From: Flavobacterium sp. MDT1-60 | GTDB taxonomy: Bacteria; Bacteroidota; Bacteroidia; Flavobacteriales; Flavobacteriaceae | Length of the DNA stretch: 64,000 nucleotides | Assembly: GCF_014844035.1 (NCBI RefSeq) | Contig: NZ_CP062159.1 | Coordinates: 682,001-746,000, forward strand | Reading direction: 5' to 3' | In this document: piece by piece, positions 55,046 to 61,465 of the stretch | Layout of the letters: every line of letters begins with the position of its first letter | Position numbering within the stretch: position 1 is the stretch's first letter | Translations under genes and position numbers: made by a program | The notes under the pieces: model-generated | Seen by the model: the letters and a program-made list of their open reading frames with translations, nothing else | The model's database searches: none | Told to the model about the DNA's origin: nothing

Positions 55046-55394
55046 ACAATTATTATTAAAGTTAGTCTCACAAATTTAATAAATTAAATTATTCATTAAC
55101 AGTTAATTATGAAAAACAAGTGCGGATTTTATAAAAATATTTGAGAAATATTTCAGTATATTAACGCGAGAGAGTATTTTTTGCAACATGCTGTTTGTTA
55201 GTTACTTATCTTTTTGCTTAATTTTAAGGTTTTTCCCGTTTTCGTTATTAAAAGGTTATCTTGTTAAAAGACAATAAAATCCTAATATTTCTTAATTTAC
55301 CTTTTAAAAATCGCAAAAGTTCCTTAGTTTTGCGCCCGAATTCATTAACTATGAATTCATAAATATTTATTCTCAACTTAAATTAGTTTATAGC
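55046..55394. other. Divergent 349-base regulatory gap between efflux operon and trhO
   Basis: No gene is seen. The gap is extremely AT-rich. It holds a minus-strand TAAATTTG (55078-55071) for the efflux operon and a plus-strand TAGTTTTG (55325-55332) for trhO, both fitting TAnnTTTG. Most other gaps here contain palindromes, but this one does not; its length suggests regulator binding sites that I cannot identify. Confidence 0.5.
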
Positions 55395-56753
55395 ATGCAA
55401 CTGTACAACACTTTAAGCGCAGAAGAAAGAGCCATCATGATCGATGATGCAGGTAAACAACGTCTTACGTTGTCTTTCTATGCGTACGCCAAAATTCAAG
55501 ATCCCAAAAAATTTCGCGATGATTTATTTTTAGCCTGGAATAAGCTCGATGCTTTAGGCCGAATTTATGTTGCTACCGAAGGAATAAATGCTCAAATGAG
55601 TATTCCGGAAGAAAATTTGGAGGCTTTTAGAGCAACCCTTGAAGTTTATGATTTCATGAAAGGCATACGATTGAACGAAGCTGTAGAACATGATGACCAT
55701 TCCTTTTTAAAATTGACCATTAAAGTTCGTGATAAGATCGTTGCTGACGGTTTGAATGACGATACTTTTGATGTAACCAATATAGGTGTTCACCTGAAAG
55801 CCAAAGAATTCAATGAAATACTTGACGATCCAAACACAATTGTAGTCGATTTCAGAAATCACTACGAAAGTGAAGTGGGGCATTTCAAAGGGGCCATTAC
55901 TCCGGATGTTGAAACGTTTAGGGAGAGTTTACCAATAATCAACGAACAGCTTCAAAATCACAAGGAAGACAAAAAACTGGTAATGTATTGCACTGGTGGG
56001 ATTCGTTGTGAAAAAGCAAGTGCTTATTTTAAACATCAGGGTTTTAAAAATGTTTATCAATTAGAAGGCGGAATCATTAATTACGCCAAACAAATTGAAG
56101 CTGAAGGTTTAGAAAGTAAATTCATTGGTAAAAACTTTGTATTCGATAATCGTCTGGGTGAAAGAATTACAGATGATATTATTTCGCAATGTCATCAATG
56201 TGGAAAACCTTGTGATAATCACACCAATTGCGAAAATGACGGATGCCATTTGTTGTTTATTCAATGTGATGAATGTAAAGCCGCAATGGAAAACTGCTGT
56301 TCTACAGAATGTCTTGAAATTATCCACATGCCTTTGGTAGATCAGGTTCGTTTGAGAACAGGAAAACAAGTTGGTAATAAAGTTTTTAGAAAAGGAAAAT
56401 CAGACAGTTTAAAATTCAAACATTCTGGAGAGTTAACTGATACTGCTTTGGCTGCGGCCGACAAACCAGCAGATATTCGTCAAAAAATAAAAGTTAAAAA
56501 AATACTACTTGGAAAAGCTGAACATTATTATGTAAAAGCACAAGTTGGACTTTTTACTATAGAAAACCACGAACTAAATAGTGGCGATAAAATCTTAATT
56601 TCCGGACCCACTACTGGTCATCAGGAATTAATTTTAGATAAAATGATTGTTAACGAGGTACAGGCATCAACAGCAACAATTGGGGATAAAGTTACTTTTG
56701 AAGTACCTTTTAGAATTAGATTATCAGATAAAATTTATAAGATTTTAGAATAA
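55395..56753 (+). CDS. trhO: tRNA uridine(34) hydroxylase TrhO with an extra TrhP-like C-terminal domain
   Basis: A 452-residue protein. The N-terminal ferredoxin-like part (Y-V-A-T-E-G-I-N-A-Q near 58-67) and rhodanese domain (about 130-235, active C199 in Y-C-T-G-G-I-R-C-E-K-A) are those of TrhO (YceA), which uses O2 to form 5-hydroxyuridine at tRNA position 34. A cysteine-rich zinc-like region follows (C266 to C306, ten cysteines). Residues about 367-452 are additional to E. coli TrhO and match the C-terminus of the next gene product closely: H-Y-Y-V-K-A-Q-V-G-L-F, G-D-K-I-L-I-S-G-P-T-T-G and P-F-R-I-R-L-S-D-K-I-Y-K-I. trhP follows after 108 bases. Confidence 0.93.
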   Translation: MQLYNTLSAEERAIMIDDAGKQRLTLSFYAYAKIQDPKKFRDDLFLAWNKLDALGRIYVATEGINAQMSIPEENLEAFRATLEVYDFMKGIRLNEAVEHDDHSFLKLTIKVRDKIVADGLNDDTFDVTNIGVHLKAKEFNEILDDPNTIVVDFRNHYESEVGHFKGAITPDVETFRESLPIINEQLQNHKEDKKLVMYCTGGIRCEKASAYFKHQGFKNVYQLEGGIINYAKQIEAEGLESKFIGKNFVFDNRLGERITDDIISQCHQCGKPCDNHTNCENDGCHLLFIQCDECKAAMENCCSTECLEIIHMPLVDQVRLRTGKQVGNKVFRKGKSDSLKFKHSGELTDTALAAADKPADIRQKIKVKKILLGKAEHYYVKAQVGLFTIENHELNSGDKILISGPTTGHQELILDKMIVNEVQASTATIGDKVTFEVPFRIRLSDKIYKILE

Positions 56754-56861
56754 TTATAAAAATCAAGTGTTTTTTAAACATATTTAGTGCGAAACTTTAG
56801 CACGTTCAAATACCACATAAAGTTAATTTTTAGAGAAAACAATAGGCTTTAAAATTAATTT

Positions 56862-58106
56862 ATGATGACAATAAATAACAAAATTGAACTCATGGCTCCC
56901 GCAGGGAGCTTTGAGTCACTTCAGGCTGCAATCGATAATGGCGCAGATTCTATCTATTTTGGAGTAGAACAACTTAATATGCGTGCGCGTTCAACGGTTA
57001 ATTTTACCATTGATGATTTAAAAGAAATTACAAATCGCTGTGAAGCTAAGAATGTTAGAAGTTATTTAACACTGAACACGATAATTTACGATCATGATTT
57101 ATCTGTCGTTAAAACACTTTTGAACAAAGCCAAAGAAGCTGGTATCACTGCTGTAATTGCTTCTGATCAGGCCGTTATTGCCATGGCTAGAAATATCTCG
57201 ATGGAAGTTCATATTTCGACGCAGTTGAATGTAACAAATATCGAAACCATTAAATTCTATAGCTTATTTGCTGATACTATGGTTTTAAGTCGGGAATTAA
57301 GCTTGCGCCAGGTAAAGAAAATCACAGGTCAAATTGAAAAAGAACAAATTAAAGGACCAAACGGAAATTTAGTTGAAATCGAAATTTTTGGTCACGGAGC
57401 TTTGTGTATGGCCGTTTCCGGAAAATGTTATTTGAGTCTGCATTCGCATAATTCATCTGCGAATCGTGGTGCGTGCAAACAAAATTGCCGAAAAAAATAT
57501 ACCGTTATCGATCAGGAAACGGGTTTTGAAATCGAATTAGATAACGAATACATGATGTCGCCAAAAGATTTATGTACACTGGATTTCTTAGATCAGGTTA
57601 TAGATTCCGGAATTCAGGTGCTAAAAGTTGAAGGTAGAGGTCGTGCACCGGAATATGTAGCAACAGTAACCAAAACATATCGTGAGGCAATTGATGCTTA
57701 TTACGATCAAACTTTCTCTAAAGAAAAAGTCAAAGTCTGGATGGAGGCCTTGAGTACTGTTTACAACCGTGGTTTTTGGTCAGGCTATTATCTGGGTCAG
57801 GAATTAGGTGAATGGAGTGCTATTCCGGGATCTGCTGCAACTCAAAAGAAAGTTTATGTTGGAAAAGGGACACATTATTTTCCAAAAGCGAAAGTGGGGC
57901 AATTCAAAATTGAAGCTTACGACATTAAAATAGGAGATAAAATTTTGGTAACTGGCCCAAGTACAGGCGCTCAGGAAATGATTATTGATGAAATGTTTGT
58001 GGATGATATTGCTGTTGAAAAAGCGACAAAAGGTGACGATTGTACTTTTAAATTGCCTTTCAGAATCAGGATGTCTGATAAATTATATAAAATTGTAGAG
58101 GCGTAA
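56862..58106 (+). CDS. trhP: Prephenate-dependent tRNA uridine(34) hydroxylase TrhP (U32 peptidase family)
   Basis: A 414-residue protein of the U32/YegQ family, which makes the same tRNA 5-hydroxyuridine without O2, using prephenate. It begins E-L-M-A-P-A-G-S-F-E-S-L-Q-A-A-I and has the U32 signature E-I-F-G-H-G-A-L-C-M-A-V-S-G-K-C. Cluster-binding cysteines are C182, C189, C205 and C209. The C-terminal domain at 329-414 (P-K-A-K-V-G-Q-F, G-D-K-I-L-V-T-G-P-S-T-G, P-F-R-I-R-M-S-D-K-L-Y-K-I) is homologous to that of TrhO upstream. The stop overlaps the ferredoxin start in TAATG. Confidence 0.92.
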   Translation: MMTINNKIELMAPAGSFESLQAAIDNGADSIYFGVEQLNMRARSTVNFTIDDLKEITNRCEAKNVRSYLTLNTIIYDHDLSVVKTLLNKAKEAGITAVIASDQAVIAMARNISMEVHISTQLNVTNIETIKFYSLFADTMVLSRELSLRQVKKITGQIEKEQIKGPNGNLVEIEIFGHGALCMAVSGKCYLSLHSHNSSANRGACKQNCRKKYTVIDQETGFEIELDNEYMMSPKDLCTLDFLDQVIDSGIQVLKVEGRGRAPEYVATVTKTYREAIDAYYDQTFSKEKVKVWMEALSTVYNRGFWSGYYLGQELGEWSAIPGSAATQKKVYVGKGTHYFPKAKVGQFKIEAYDIKIGDKILVTGPSTGAQEMIIDEMFVDDIAVEKATKGDDCTFKLPFRIRMSDKLYKIVEA

Positions 58107-58336
58107 TGGTGATTATAACATTACAAAGAGACAAATGCATCGGCTGTAATTATTGCGTTGAAATGGATCCGATACATTTTCAAATGTCAAAAAAAGATGG
58201 GAAATCGGTTTTGCTTCATTCGCAGAATGCAAAAGGTTTTTTTACTTTAAAATCTCCAAATCATACGATTGTCGAAAGTTGTGAATTGGCGGCAAAGGCA
58301 TGTCCGGTTAAGATTATTACGGTTAAGGAAACGTAG
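58106..58336 (+). CDS. Small [4Fe-4S] ferredoxin in the trhO-trhP operon
   Basis: A 76-residue cytoplasmic ferredoxin with C11-x2-C14-x2-C17 and the distal C66-P motif for one [4Fe-4S] cluster; C59 is an additional cysteine that may pair with another residue. Its ATG overlaps the trhP stop, so translation is coupled. TrhP depends on an iron-sulfur cluster, so this ferredoxin may supply electrons to it or help in cluster upkeep; that is inference from gene order. A gap of 165 bases without clear features follows. Confidence 0.9.
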   Translation: MVIITLQRDKCIGCNYCVEMDPIHFQMSKKDGKSVLLHSQNAKGFFTLKSPNHTIVESCELAAKACPVKIITVKET

Positions 58337-58501: not shown

Positions 58502-59488
58502 ATGGAGAATGATTTAAAGAAGTTTATACTTTATACTGCACCAAGCGGAGAAATACGTGTTGATGTTTTGCTTCAAAATGAATCAGTGTGGTTAACTCAA
58601 AAAACAATTGCAGAATTATTTGGTGTCCAAGTGCCTGCAATAAGTAAGCATTTCAAAAACATTTTTGAGGAAGGAGAATTAGTTGAATCCTCAGTTGTTT
58701 CCAAAATGGAAACAACTGCTTCAGATGACAAAAATTATATTACAAGTTATTATAACCTCGATGCCATAATTTCTGTTGGATACAGAGTAAACTCTACTAA
58801 AGCTACGCAATTCAGGATCTGGGCAACCCAAACCTTAAAAGAATATATTATAAAAGGTTTTGTTTTAGATGATAATCGTTTAAAACAAGGTCAGGCAATT
58901 TTTGGTAAAGATTATTTCAAAGAATTATTGCAAAGAGTTCGATCTATTCGGACGAGTGAAAGGAGAATTTACCAACAAGTAACTGATATTTTTGCCGAAT
59001 GCAGTATTGATTATGATAACAATTCGGAAATAACTAAAAATTTCTACGCAATCGTTCAAAACAAATTTCACTTTGCTATTACAGGAAAAACAGCTGCTGA
59101 GATAATATTTGAAACAGCGGATGTCAAAAAAGAAAATATGGGATTGACCACGTGGAAGAATAGTCCAAACGGACGGGTTTTAAAATCGGATGTCGTCGTT
59201 GCCAAAAATTATTTGGAAGAAAAAGAAATTAAACAATTAGAGCGTACTATAACCGGATATTTTGATTATATAGAAGGATTGATAGAACGTGAGAACACTT
59301 TTACAATGGAAGAACTGGCAACAAGCGTTAATAAATTTTTATCTTTTAATGATTATAAAGTGATGGATGGAAAAGGGAAAATGACGAAAATACAAGCAGA
59401 TAAAAAAGCAATTGCCGCATACGAAGTCTTCAATAAAACACAAAAAATAATTTCTGATTTTGATAAAGAAATAAAAAGACTAAAATAA
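58502..59488 (+). CDS. RhuM family accessory protein
   Basis: A 328-residue protein of the virulence RhuM family. It opens with V-D-V-L-L-Q-N-E-S-V-W-L-T-Q-K-T-I-A-E-L-F-G-V, a winged-helix DNA-binding pattern (A-I-S-K-H-F-K-N-I-F), and has Y-N-L-D-A-I-I-S-V-G-Y-R-V-N-S, F-R-I-W-A-T-Q-T-L-K-E-Y and G-K-T-A-A-E-I-I in the order expected. The gene was first seen on a Salmonella pathogenicity island; its role is unknown, and it is scattered among bacteria by transfer, often near toxin-antitoxin or restriction genes. Here it is alone between the trh operon and housekeeping genes. Confidence 0.92.
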   Translation: MENDLKKFILYTAPSGEIRVDVLLQNESVWLTQKTIAELFGVQVPAISKHFKNIFEEGELVESSVVSKMETTASDDKNYITSYYNLDAIISVGYRVNSTKATQFRIWATQTLKEYIIKGFVLDDNRLKQGQAIFGKDYFKELLQRVRSIRTSERRIYQQVTDIFAECSIDYDNNSEITKNFYAIVQNKFHFAITGKTAAEIIFETADVKKENMGLTTWKNSPNGRVLKSDVVVAKNYLEEKEIKQLERTITGYFDYIEGLIERENTFTMEELATSVNKFLSFNDYKVMDGKGKMTKIQADKKAIAAYEVFNKTQKIISDFDKEIKRLK

Positions 59489-59507
59489 TAGATTAAAAAA
59501 ATGTTTT

Positions 59508-59544
59508 AAAAATCCTATTTTGCAGAATGTGAAATAGGATTTTT
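59508..59544 (+). terminator. Rho-independent terminator after the RhuM gene
   Basis: Perfect 13-bp stem (AAAAATCCTATTT with AAATAGGATTTTT), 11-nt loop, then a T-rich run, 20 bases after the stop. Confidence 0.85.
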
Positions 59545-59658
59545 TATTTAACAAGCATTTAGTTTTAATGCATAAAAAGCAAACTAAAAAAAATACTATC
59601 TTTACCGATTAAACGTTTATGAACTTAAGTTGCTTCTTGCAACACTACATATATAATT

Positions 59659-61002
59659 ATGGCATGTACAAGTTGTTCAACCTCAGATGGTGGCGCACCA
59701 AAGGGTTGTAAAAATAATGGGACTTGCGGCACCGATAGCTGCAATAAATTAACGGTTTTTGATTGGCTCGCGAACATGAGTCCGTCTAATGGAGAGGCTA
59801 TTTTTGATTGTGTTGAGGTTCGTTTTAAAAACGGCCGCAAGGAATTTTTTAGAAATTCAGAAAAATTAACTTTAAGTATTGGTGATATTGTAGCAACTGT
59901 TGCATCACCAGGACATGATATTGGAATTGTTACTTTGACAGGCGAATTGGTAAAAATTCAAATGAAGAAAAAAGGTGTAAACCATGAAAGCAACGAAATT
60001 CCAAAAATCTACAGGAAAGCATCTCAAAAAGACATCGATATTTGGTCTGTTGCGCGTGATCGCGAAGAGCCAATGAAGGTTCGTGCGCGCGAATTAGCGA
60101 TTCAGCACAAATTAGAAATGAAAATTTCTGATATTGAATTTCAGGGAGATGGGTCAAAAGCGACGTTTTATTACACGGCAAATGACAGAGTCGATTTTAG
60201 ACTTTTGATTAAAGATTTTGCAAAGGAATTCAGCACAAGAGTTGAAATGAAGCAAGTTGGTTTCCGTCAGGAAGCGGCTCGTTTAGGTGGAATTGGTTCT
60301 TGCGGACGTGAGCTTTGTTGTTCGACCTGGTTAACTGATTTTAGGAGTGTCAATACTTCTGCAGCGCGTTACCAACAACTTTCTCTAAATCCTCAAAAAT
60401 TAGCCGGACAATGCGGTAAATTGAAGTGTTGCTTAAATTATGAGCTTGATACTTACATGGATGCGTTGAAAGATTTTCCGGATTACGATACTAAATTAGT
60501 AACCGAAAAAGGAGATGCAATCTGTCAAAAACAAGATATTTTTAAAGGTTTAATGTGGTTTGCTTACACGAATAATTTTGCAAACTGGCATGTTTTGAAA
60601 ATTGATCAGGTAAAAGAAATTATTGCCGAAAACAAACAGAAAAATAAAGTGTCTTCATTAGAAGATTTTGCAATCGAAATTGTTTTAGAGCCTGAAAAAG
60701 ACTTTAACAACGCAATGGGTCAGGAGAGTTTAACCCGTTTTGATCAGCCGAAGAAAAAGAAAAAACCAAATCGCAAACGCAAACCAAATGCGGAAGGCGC
60801 GGTTGCAGTTGCTCCAACACCAAATAAACCTCAACAAGGAAATAATAACAATAGTAATAAACCGGCTGGCGGAAATCCGAATAAATCGAATAAACCGCAC
60901 AACAAACAAAATCAATCGAATAAGCCAAATAATTCGAATGAGAACAAGTCGGCTGAACCTAGAAAACCTATAATTATTACTAAAAATGAGAATAAAAAAT
61001 AG
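59659..61002 (+). CDS. PSP1 domain protein (RicT/YaaT-like)
   Basis: A 447-residue cytoplasmic protein. The N-terminus is cysteine-rich (C3, C6, C17, C23, C28), then the PSP1 domain (about 60-200) and the signature G-R-E-L-C-C-S-T-W-L and G-Q-C-G-K-L-K-C-C-L-N-Y-E (about 215-265). In B. subtilis the relative RicT joins RicA and RicF in an iron-sulfur complex acting on RNase Y. The last 80 residues are a low-complexity Asn/Lys/Pro tail, common in flavobacterial homologues. It overlaps gldH by 17 bases, so the two are translationally coupled. Confidence 0.92.
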   Translation: MACTSCSTSDGGAPKGCKNNGTCGTDSCNKLTVFDWLANMSPSNGEAIFDCVEVRFKNGRKEFFRNSEKLTLSIGDIVATVASPGHDIGIVTLTGELVKIQMKKKGVNHESNEIPKIYRKASQKDIDIWSVARDREEPMKVRARELAIQHKLEMKISDIEFQGDGSKATFYYTANDRVDFRLLIKDFAKEFSTRVEMKQVGFRQEAARLGGIGSCGRELCCSTWLTDFRSVNTSAARYQQLSLNPQKLAGQCGKLKCCLNYELDTYMDALKDFPDYDTKLVTEKGDAICQKQDIFKGLMWFAYTNNFANWHVLKIDQVKEIIAENKQKNKVSSLEDFAIEIVLEPEKDFNNAMGQESLTRFDQPKKKKKPNRKRKPNAEGAVAVAPTPNKPQQGNNNNSNKPAGGNPNKSNKPHNKQNQSNKPNNSNENKSAEPRKPIIITKNENKK

Positions 61003-61465
61003 CGGAATTCTTCTTTTGGCAACAATACTTCTTTTTTCGTGTGATAAAAAAAGAGTATTCGATGAGTACAAATCTGTTGGAAGTGCCTGGCATAAAGACA
61101 GTATTATAACTTTTGATTTGCCCGTTTTAGACTCTACCAAAAAATACAATTTATTTGTAAATTTGAGAGACAATAACGATTATCCGTTCAATAATTTGTT
61201 TTTAATTGTAGCTCTTGAAATGCCAAATGGTTTTACAAAAGTGGATACATTAGAATACCAAATGGCAAATCCGGACGGAACTTTATTAGGAAACGGTTTT
61301 ACAGATATAAAAGAAAGTAAACTGTTTTATAAAGAAGACGTTAAGTTTAGAGGAAAATATAAAGTATACATCAAACAAGCCGTTAGGCAATCTGGAAAAA
61401 TCCCAGGTGTTCAGGAATTAGATGGTATTACAGACGTAGGTTTTAGAATAGAACAAAAAGATTAG
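60986..61465 (+). CDS. gldH: Gliding motility lipoprotein GldH
   Basis: A 159-residue lipoprotein with the lipobox L-L-F-S-C (C19). The mature protein has F-D-E-Y-K-S-V-G-S-A-W-H-K-D, L-F-V-N-L-R-D-N-N-D-Y-P-F-N-N-L-F-L-I and a C-terminal I-P-G-V-Q-E-L-D-G-I-T-D-V-G-F-R-I-E, all as in GldH. GldH is needed for gliding and surface adhesin movement in F. johnsoniae. Its gene lies between the PSP1 gene (17-base overlap) and the PBP1A gene (13-base gap), as I recall for F. johnsoniae. Confidence 0.93.
   Translation: MRIKNSGILLLATILLFSCDKKRVFDEYKSVGSAWHKDSIITFDLPVLDSTKKYNLFVNLRDNNDYPFNNLFLIVALEMPNGFTKVDTLEYQMANPDGTLLGNGFTDIKESKLFYKEDVKFRGKYKVYIKQAVRQSGKIPGVQELDGITDVGFRIEQKD

Follow-up and report, generated by a model that had tools for sequence, protein, structure and literature searches.

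Predicted capture of a U32-type C-terminal barrel by the tRNA hydroxylase TrhO in Flavobacterium, beside a ferredoxin-linked U32 oxidase

The window analysed here is a stretch of 64,000 nucleotides from Flavobacterium sp. MDT1-60 (RefSeq assembly GCF_014844035.1, contig NZ_CP062159.1, positions 682,001 to 746,000), whose genome is a single 5.56-Mb contig. It encodes, side by side, the tRNA hydroxylase TrhO, a TrhP-like oxidase of the U32 family, and a small ferredoxin. The window TrhO ends in an extra barrel domain homologous to the end of the neighbouring U32 protein, and sequence comparisons suggest that TrhO captured it, in one lineage, from a flavobacterial U32 RNA hydroxylase-type protein like this neighbour. 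The explanation of the locus that we favor, with slightly better than even confidence, is that the captured Peptidase_U32_C (U32_C) barrel is a tRNA-recognition module in TrhO and that the ferredoxin serves the U32 enzyme. The features are as follows:

55395..56753, forward strand: trhO gene, 452 residues, stop codon included; matches NCBIfam NF001133 and E. coli TrhO
55395..56402, forward strand: TrhO core, residues 1-336 (Pfam; limit of the E. coli match), with Pfam domains UPF0176_N (25-115), Rhodanese (136-231), and Rhodanese_C (245-306)
55989..56009, forward strand: rhodanese active loop CTGGIRC, residues 199-205, same in E. coli TrhO
56403..56489, forward strand: linker joining the TrhO core to the barrel, residues 337-365, of low predicted local distance difference test score (pLDDT; residues 322-365 below 50)
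56493..56750, forward strand: C-terminal barrel of TrhO, probably captured, residues 367-452 (BLASTP, predicted fold)
56862..58106, forward strand: U32 oxidase-like (TrhP-like) gene, 414 residues, stop codon included; Pfam PF01136, E 1.8e-69
57405..57488, forward strand: four-cysteine motif CX6CX15CX3C (C182-C209) of the U32 protein, with E174 eight residues before it
57846..58103, forward strand: residues 329-414 of the U32 protein, its C-terminal barrel, at the Peptidase_U32_C position
58106..58336, forward strand: ferredoxin of the single-[4Fe-4S] type, 76 residues; Pfam Fer4_13

The window TrhO clears the NCBIfam NF001133 cut-off (267.7 versus 170 bits), and E. coli K-12 TrhO (YceA) matches it with 53% identity over 335 positions, spanning residues 3-336 and nothing beyond. 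The two proteins have the same three Pfam domains, the CTGGIRC loop, and the K-V-R surface residues; in the alignment, the active loop CTGGIR(C) and the surface pair K112/R114 are identical. Residues C200, T201, G203, and R205 are essential in E. coli TrhO according to the passages of PMC6599085 used here, which are also the source for the importance of K112/R114. Whereas E. coli TrhO stops at residue 350, residues 337-452 of the window protein form the linker and the barrel. As part of the favored explanation, the protein is predicted to be an ordinary O2-dependent hydroxylase of tRNA uridine 34 (U34) that gained a U32_C barrel.

The added domain and the end of the U32 protein are clearly related, as the original prediction had proposed: TrhO residues 368-452 align without gaps to U32 residues 329-413 with 46 of 85 positions identical (54%, BLASTP E 1e-29), and both tails contain GDKIL and PFRIRxSDK. 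No further copy is seen in the genome, where the next-best hit to the TrhO domain has an E value of 0.55. The expected structural similarity of the two C-termini also held up. The TrhO barrel is predicted to adopt the fold of the solved U32_C domain (PDB 4he5 and 4he6; PF16325) at 15% identity, and the U32 copy, itself unmodelled, is 54% identical to it. In the window, the domain also sits on a rhodanese-type enzyme. The closest folds after U32_C are translation factor domains, many of them solved on the ribosome, in a list that does not exclude other families. The C-terminal domain of IF2 and domain 2 of EF-Tu resemble the U32_C fold, but the TrhO and U32 barrels have no attached GTPase, and tRNA binding by them is putative.

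The barrel appears to have reached TrhO from the U32 side. Regions were fetched for 75 TrhO genes, the window's included, of which 51 are fused to a barrel and 24 are plain. In a tree built from the TrhO cores without the barrel, the 51 fused proteins cluster apart from the plain ones (support 99/90), with one change; the barrels of TrhO cluster as well (84/83), next to the flavobacterial U32 barrels. For the U32 proteins, we fetched 57 loci of close relatives (core score above 400 bits) and 14 of more distant ones; the barrel is present on all 57 and on 9 of the 14. Because the barrel is general on close U32 proteins and confined to one clade of TrhO, the direction of transfer is read as from U32 to TrhO. 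The constrained trees vary with the rows included. A transfer of fused trhO between Flavobacterium and Weeksellaceae was considered: holding the Flavobacteriaceae TrhO as a clade gave p 0.034 with a nested row of family f55 and p 5e-94 without it; the corresponding TrhO clade constraint gave p 0.0325 for the window's genus (g1) alone and p 0.072 for g1 with genus g124. In the donor test, holding the order's U32 barrels together without the TrhO barrels gave p 0.009, or p 0.054 for families f1 and f2 alone (f2 being Weeksellaceae, such as Chryseobacterium at L134 and Epilithonimonas at L154); adding L108 gave p 0.048, and also leaving out L092 gave p 0.41. Five Flavobacterium TrhO proteins (L009, L011, L012, L017, and L026) have a different linker and a barrel nearer to the U32 copy. 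Constraining these five barrels with the Flavobacterium U32 barrels is not rejected (p 0.29 and 0.435), and a second capture is possible there.

Ongoing gene conversion between the two tails was considered and rejected. Across 21 genomes, identity within a genome is generally not above that between genomes (in 3 of 21 the tail's best partner is the one from its own genome), which marks the two copies as old and separate. Ratios of nonsynonymous to synonymous substitution (dN/dS) were computed for pairs drawn from both sets, 131 TrhO and 84 U32 genes, at dS 0.1-1.2; the pairs are non-independent and species duplicates are probable. The cores have medians of 0.033 (TrhO) and 0.032 (U32). For the TrhO barrel, the median is 0.131 among pairs with trhP at both loci (350 pairs) and 0.161 among pairs with trhP at neither (528 pairs). 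The TrhO barrel is under purifying selection, looser than in U32 proteins and depending little on trhP.

Although the earlier reading took the shared domain as the mark of a joint module of two enzymes, the distribution of the barrel does not bear this out. We surveyed an even sample of 247 Bacteroidota genomes and an order sample of 196. The barrel profile matches in 121 of the 247; in the rows compared, the matches lie behind U32 domains or in long TrhO frames (15 genomes of g1, three of f2), the exceptions in that sample being an extra fragment with stops (G117) and a weak match (G006, E 5.5e-5). TrhO is above cut-off in 134 of the 247 and 134 of the 196 genomes. The order sample contains 66 U32 places, of which a short trhP-type U32 accounts for those in 43 genomes, while the other 23 are long and RlhA-like, or a fragment of such a gene. 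Both genes occur in 25 genomes, TrhO only in 109, U32 only in 18, and neither in 44; 40 genomes lack any TrhO match, and the 20 among those listed all belong to f56, with genomes of 300-600 kb. A long TrhO (open frame of 451-527 residues) is found in 56 genomes: 23 of g1 including the window's, G409, and 32 of f2. This class was called by frame length, the barrel being directly matched in the 51 that were fetched and the other five being unfetched.

If the barrel docked both hydroxylases to one partner, be it each other, the ferredoxin, or a tRNA-handling complex, its presence on both enzymes would be accounted for, as would their linkage: in all 25 order-sample genomes with both genes, trhO and its U32 partner gene share a contig and a strand and are within ~4 kb of each other, in support of the adjacency noted at the outset. 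The domain is nevertheless not limited to genomes with an adjacent trhP, since 35 of the 56 long-TrhO genomes have no trhP-type U32 and 21 do (a U32 gene is in the locus of 21 of the 51 fetched fused TrhO). Five TrhO proteins without a barrel have a U32 gene in their locus, four adjoining it (L032, L033, L035, and L037) and one 8.8 kb away (L096), and constraint on the barrel is similar where the locus has no trhP, although a partner may be encoded elsewhere, ferredoxins having been sought within the loci. We regard such docking as quite improbable. Named loci are uninformative on the reach of the fusion, since the search for them used fused queries and the 80 kept are the top-ranking ones among at least 589; all 80 are fused, and 27 have a U32 gene within ~4 kb.

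The label trhP for the U32 neighbor finds partial support. The protein is a U32 protein with a C-terminal barrel, but it scores 196.4 bits against the NCBIfam TrhP equivalog NF011996, whose cut-off is 534, so the label is unproven. With a UbiU model score of 170 bits, and with PMC6599085, in the passages used, listing gamma-, beta-, and some deltaproteobacteria as carriers of yegQ-type trhP, the neighbor might be another U32 oxidase that does not act on tRNA, in which case the shared domain would say nothing about U34. We judge this rather improbable. The U32 gene is linked to trhO, and in hhalign the profile of 31 Bacteroidota U32 proteins is colinear with 16 YegQ-type rows through the C-terminal U32_C (377 columns, E 2.1e-50). 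Among the four E. coli U32 proteins, PF16325 matches only the tRNA enzyme and is unseen in UbiU, UbiV, and RlhA. The genome also has a separate RlhA-like U32 protein with DUF3656 (633 residues, L124:2555-4453), far from the window, and the 18 order-sample genomes with a U32 gene and no TrhO above cut-off likewise count against a different oxidase. E. coli TrhP (YegQ) is 28% identical to the window protein over 350 positions; the two share the U32 domain, the CX6CX15CX3C motif, the glutamate eight residues before the first cysteine, and the position of U32_C, and differ in that the window protein lacks the long insertion seen after the cysteines in YegQ and has a ferredoxin gene behind its own, none being annotated beside E. 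coli trhP. The four-cysteine motif, described for U32 oxidases in the passages of PMC11574389 used here, is kept in all 71 fetched U32 proteins, the window's included. TrhP is the likely name for the neighbor.

The ferredoxin (Fer4_13, 46.3 bits against a cut-off of 24.5) follows the U32 gene so closely that its ATG begins on the last base of the U32 stop (TAATG, 58104-58108), which confirms the overlap first noticed. The association also extends well beyond the window. A ferredoxin lies downstream on the same strand in 54 of the 57 close U32 loci, with CxxCxxC...CP kept in all 54, the window's included; the gap between open frames is at most 100 bases in 51 loci, and 44 overlap, although these frames run from stop to stop, so that fewer genes do. 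None of the 14 more distant U32 loci has one. All 27 named loci with a U32 gene have it, with some overlap of species with the first set likely. A very reduced genome of ~300 kb (G404, locus L093), absent from the set with a TrhO match, retains the barrel-bearing U32 gene and the ferredoxin. In Flavobacterium circumlabens (L182:5300-6140), an unrelated small open reading frame, which we take to be an IS200-type transposase, occupies the place of the U32 gene; behind it, only a ferredoxin remnant interrupted by a stop is left, whereas the fused trhO is open. From the locus counts, this retention, and this joint loss, the ferredoxin goes with the U32 gene, and gene order together with the single case of joint loss suggests that it belongs to the U32 enzyme as a redox partner. 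In UbiU/UbiV and TrhP1/TrhP2, the second Fe-S center comes from a partner chain, and RlhA has an extra cysteine domain (background in the passages of PMC11574389 used). These two-cluster oxidases share with the window protein a U32 domain with the four-cysteine motif; unlike them, the window protein would obtain its second Fe-S site from a separate small ferredoxin. If U32 oxidases need such a center, the coupled ferredoxin could supply it as a relay or an electron donor.

The tRNA set of the genome indicates why U34 modification would be of consequence. A search gave 57 tRNA matches (150 of 508 first-look candidates were scored, and a missed gene is possible), and ARAGORN on the fetched stretches found 57 distinct tRNA genes. 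None of these has a C34 anticodon in the Ala, Pro, Ser (UCN), Thr, Val, or Leu (CUN) boxes. The only anticodon for Pro is UGG and that for Val is UAC, with two genes each, so that one U34 tRNA species reads each of the two boxes. With no C34 tRNAs in these six boxes, U34 wobble modification should matter. The tRNAs for these amino acids carry modifications of the uridine 5-oxyacetic acid (cmo5U) type in E. coli (PMC6599085, passages used). CmoB has no match above cut-off in the genome (best 26.1 bits versus 275), so the final product may be 5-hydroxyuridine (ho5U) or a methylated form. The sole PF01596 methyltransferase match in the genome (L214:1462-2103) might methylate ho5U; its four NCBIfam matches are all below cut-off, and none is named tRNA hydroxyuridine methyltransferase.

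In the favored explanation, the barrel would act as a substrate-recognition module, contacting tRNA, in TrhO itself, raising its affinity for tRNA or widening its tRNA range, probably on a flexible linker. We infer this contact from the fold of the translation-factor barrels, from the presence of the domain on the only tRNA enzyme among the four scanned E. coli U32 proteins, and from the finding that the only other protein seen to have acquired it works on tRNA U34, the search having covered samples of Bacteroidota and the 80 top-ranking named loci. Translation-factor barrels hold the acceptor end of tRNA, far from U34, so the contact site of this barrel need not match theirs. Several points weigh against the explanation. 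The alignment used for folding the barrel combined TrhO and U32 copies, the model of the whole TrhO is of low quality (pLDDT 59.7, predicted template modelling score 0.34) and unusable for domain packing, and PF16325 has no match at E<=1 in either full-length window protein. With a gathering score of 28.2 bits, this family is matched at E<=1 by 13 of 38 barrels (best 2.6e-4) and reaches at best 18.4 bits in eight Bacteroidota U32 proteins; the barrel profile matches the single E. coli domain weakly (E 0.003, probability 10%). The barrel is mildly basic (median net charge +2 over 51 TrhO copies), its dN/dS of 0.13-0.16 indicates less constraint than the 0.049 of the U32 barrel, and three of the close U32 loci (L100, L109, and L113) have no neighboring ferredoxin. 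Of 15 Flavobacteriaceae genomes with a plain TrhO, 11 likewise lack the trhP-type gene, so there is no sign that fusion made trhP dispensable. A barrel fold by itself shows no function.

The same folds allow the barrel to bind the ribosome, a translation factor, or another RNA in place of the tRNA substrate, for example coupling modification to translation, and the ribosome-bound structures among its closest folds speak for this; the domain sits on a tRNA enzyme in E. coli (PMC6599085, passages used), however, and we consider such binding unlikely. Nor do we think it at all probable that the barrel is a passenger, fixed by chance and helping only folding or stability. It is constrained roughly one-third as strongly as its U32 counterpart and the linker varies in length and sequence, but dN/dS medians are well below 1, the barrel is kept in all 51 fetched members of the fused clade (as in the 80 named loci, with their fused queries), and G39, G43, F74, R77, S79, and D80 are among the residues invariant over 77 barrels of both kinds.

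Around the three genes, the spacing of the trhO and U32 frames differs between close species of Flavobacterium: in some the frames overlap, and in others they lie up to 1.6 kb apart. Upstream of the TrhO ATG, in-frame V-Y-S codons (55386-55394) are kept in the window and 18 of the 19 other alignment rows, mostly one codon after a stop, with L-Y-S at the same place in L025; this stretch is either a conserved leader or a misplaced start. Beyond the ferredoxin (58502-61465) lie a RhuM-family gene (PF13310, E 9.8e-102) and then genes for a PSP1-domain protein and GldH.

To our knowledge, no role has been established for the U32 C-terminal barrel, a domain of solved structure. Among the literature matches listed, titles and abstract openings, together with passages of PMC6599085, PMC10470549, and PMC11574389, make no mention of a TrhO-barrel fusion or of the ferredoxin link. 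E. coli TrhO binds tRNA-Ala1 and not tRNA-Leu3 (PMC6599085, passages used). In its strongest form, which we offer tentatively and consider somewhat doubtful, U32_C would be a portable tRNA-recognition barrel that moved from an anaerobic-type Fe-S hydroxylase to a chemically unrelated, O2-dependent one with the same target position in the anticodon. TrhO would thereby have acquired the tRNA range of TrhP, and the flavobacterial TrhP, as a single chain, would use the coupled ferredoxin as its obligatory second Fe-S center. Overall, this natural transplant of the barrel onto an unrelated enzyme with apparently the same substrate position offers a clean test of the role of the barrel in tRNA choice.
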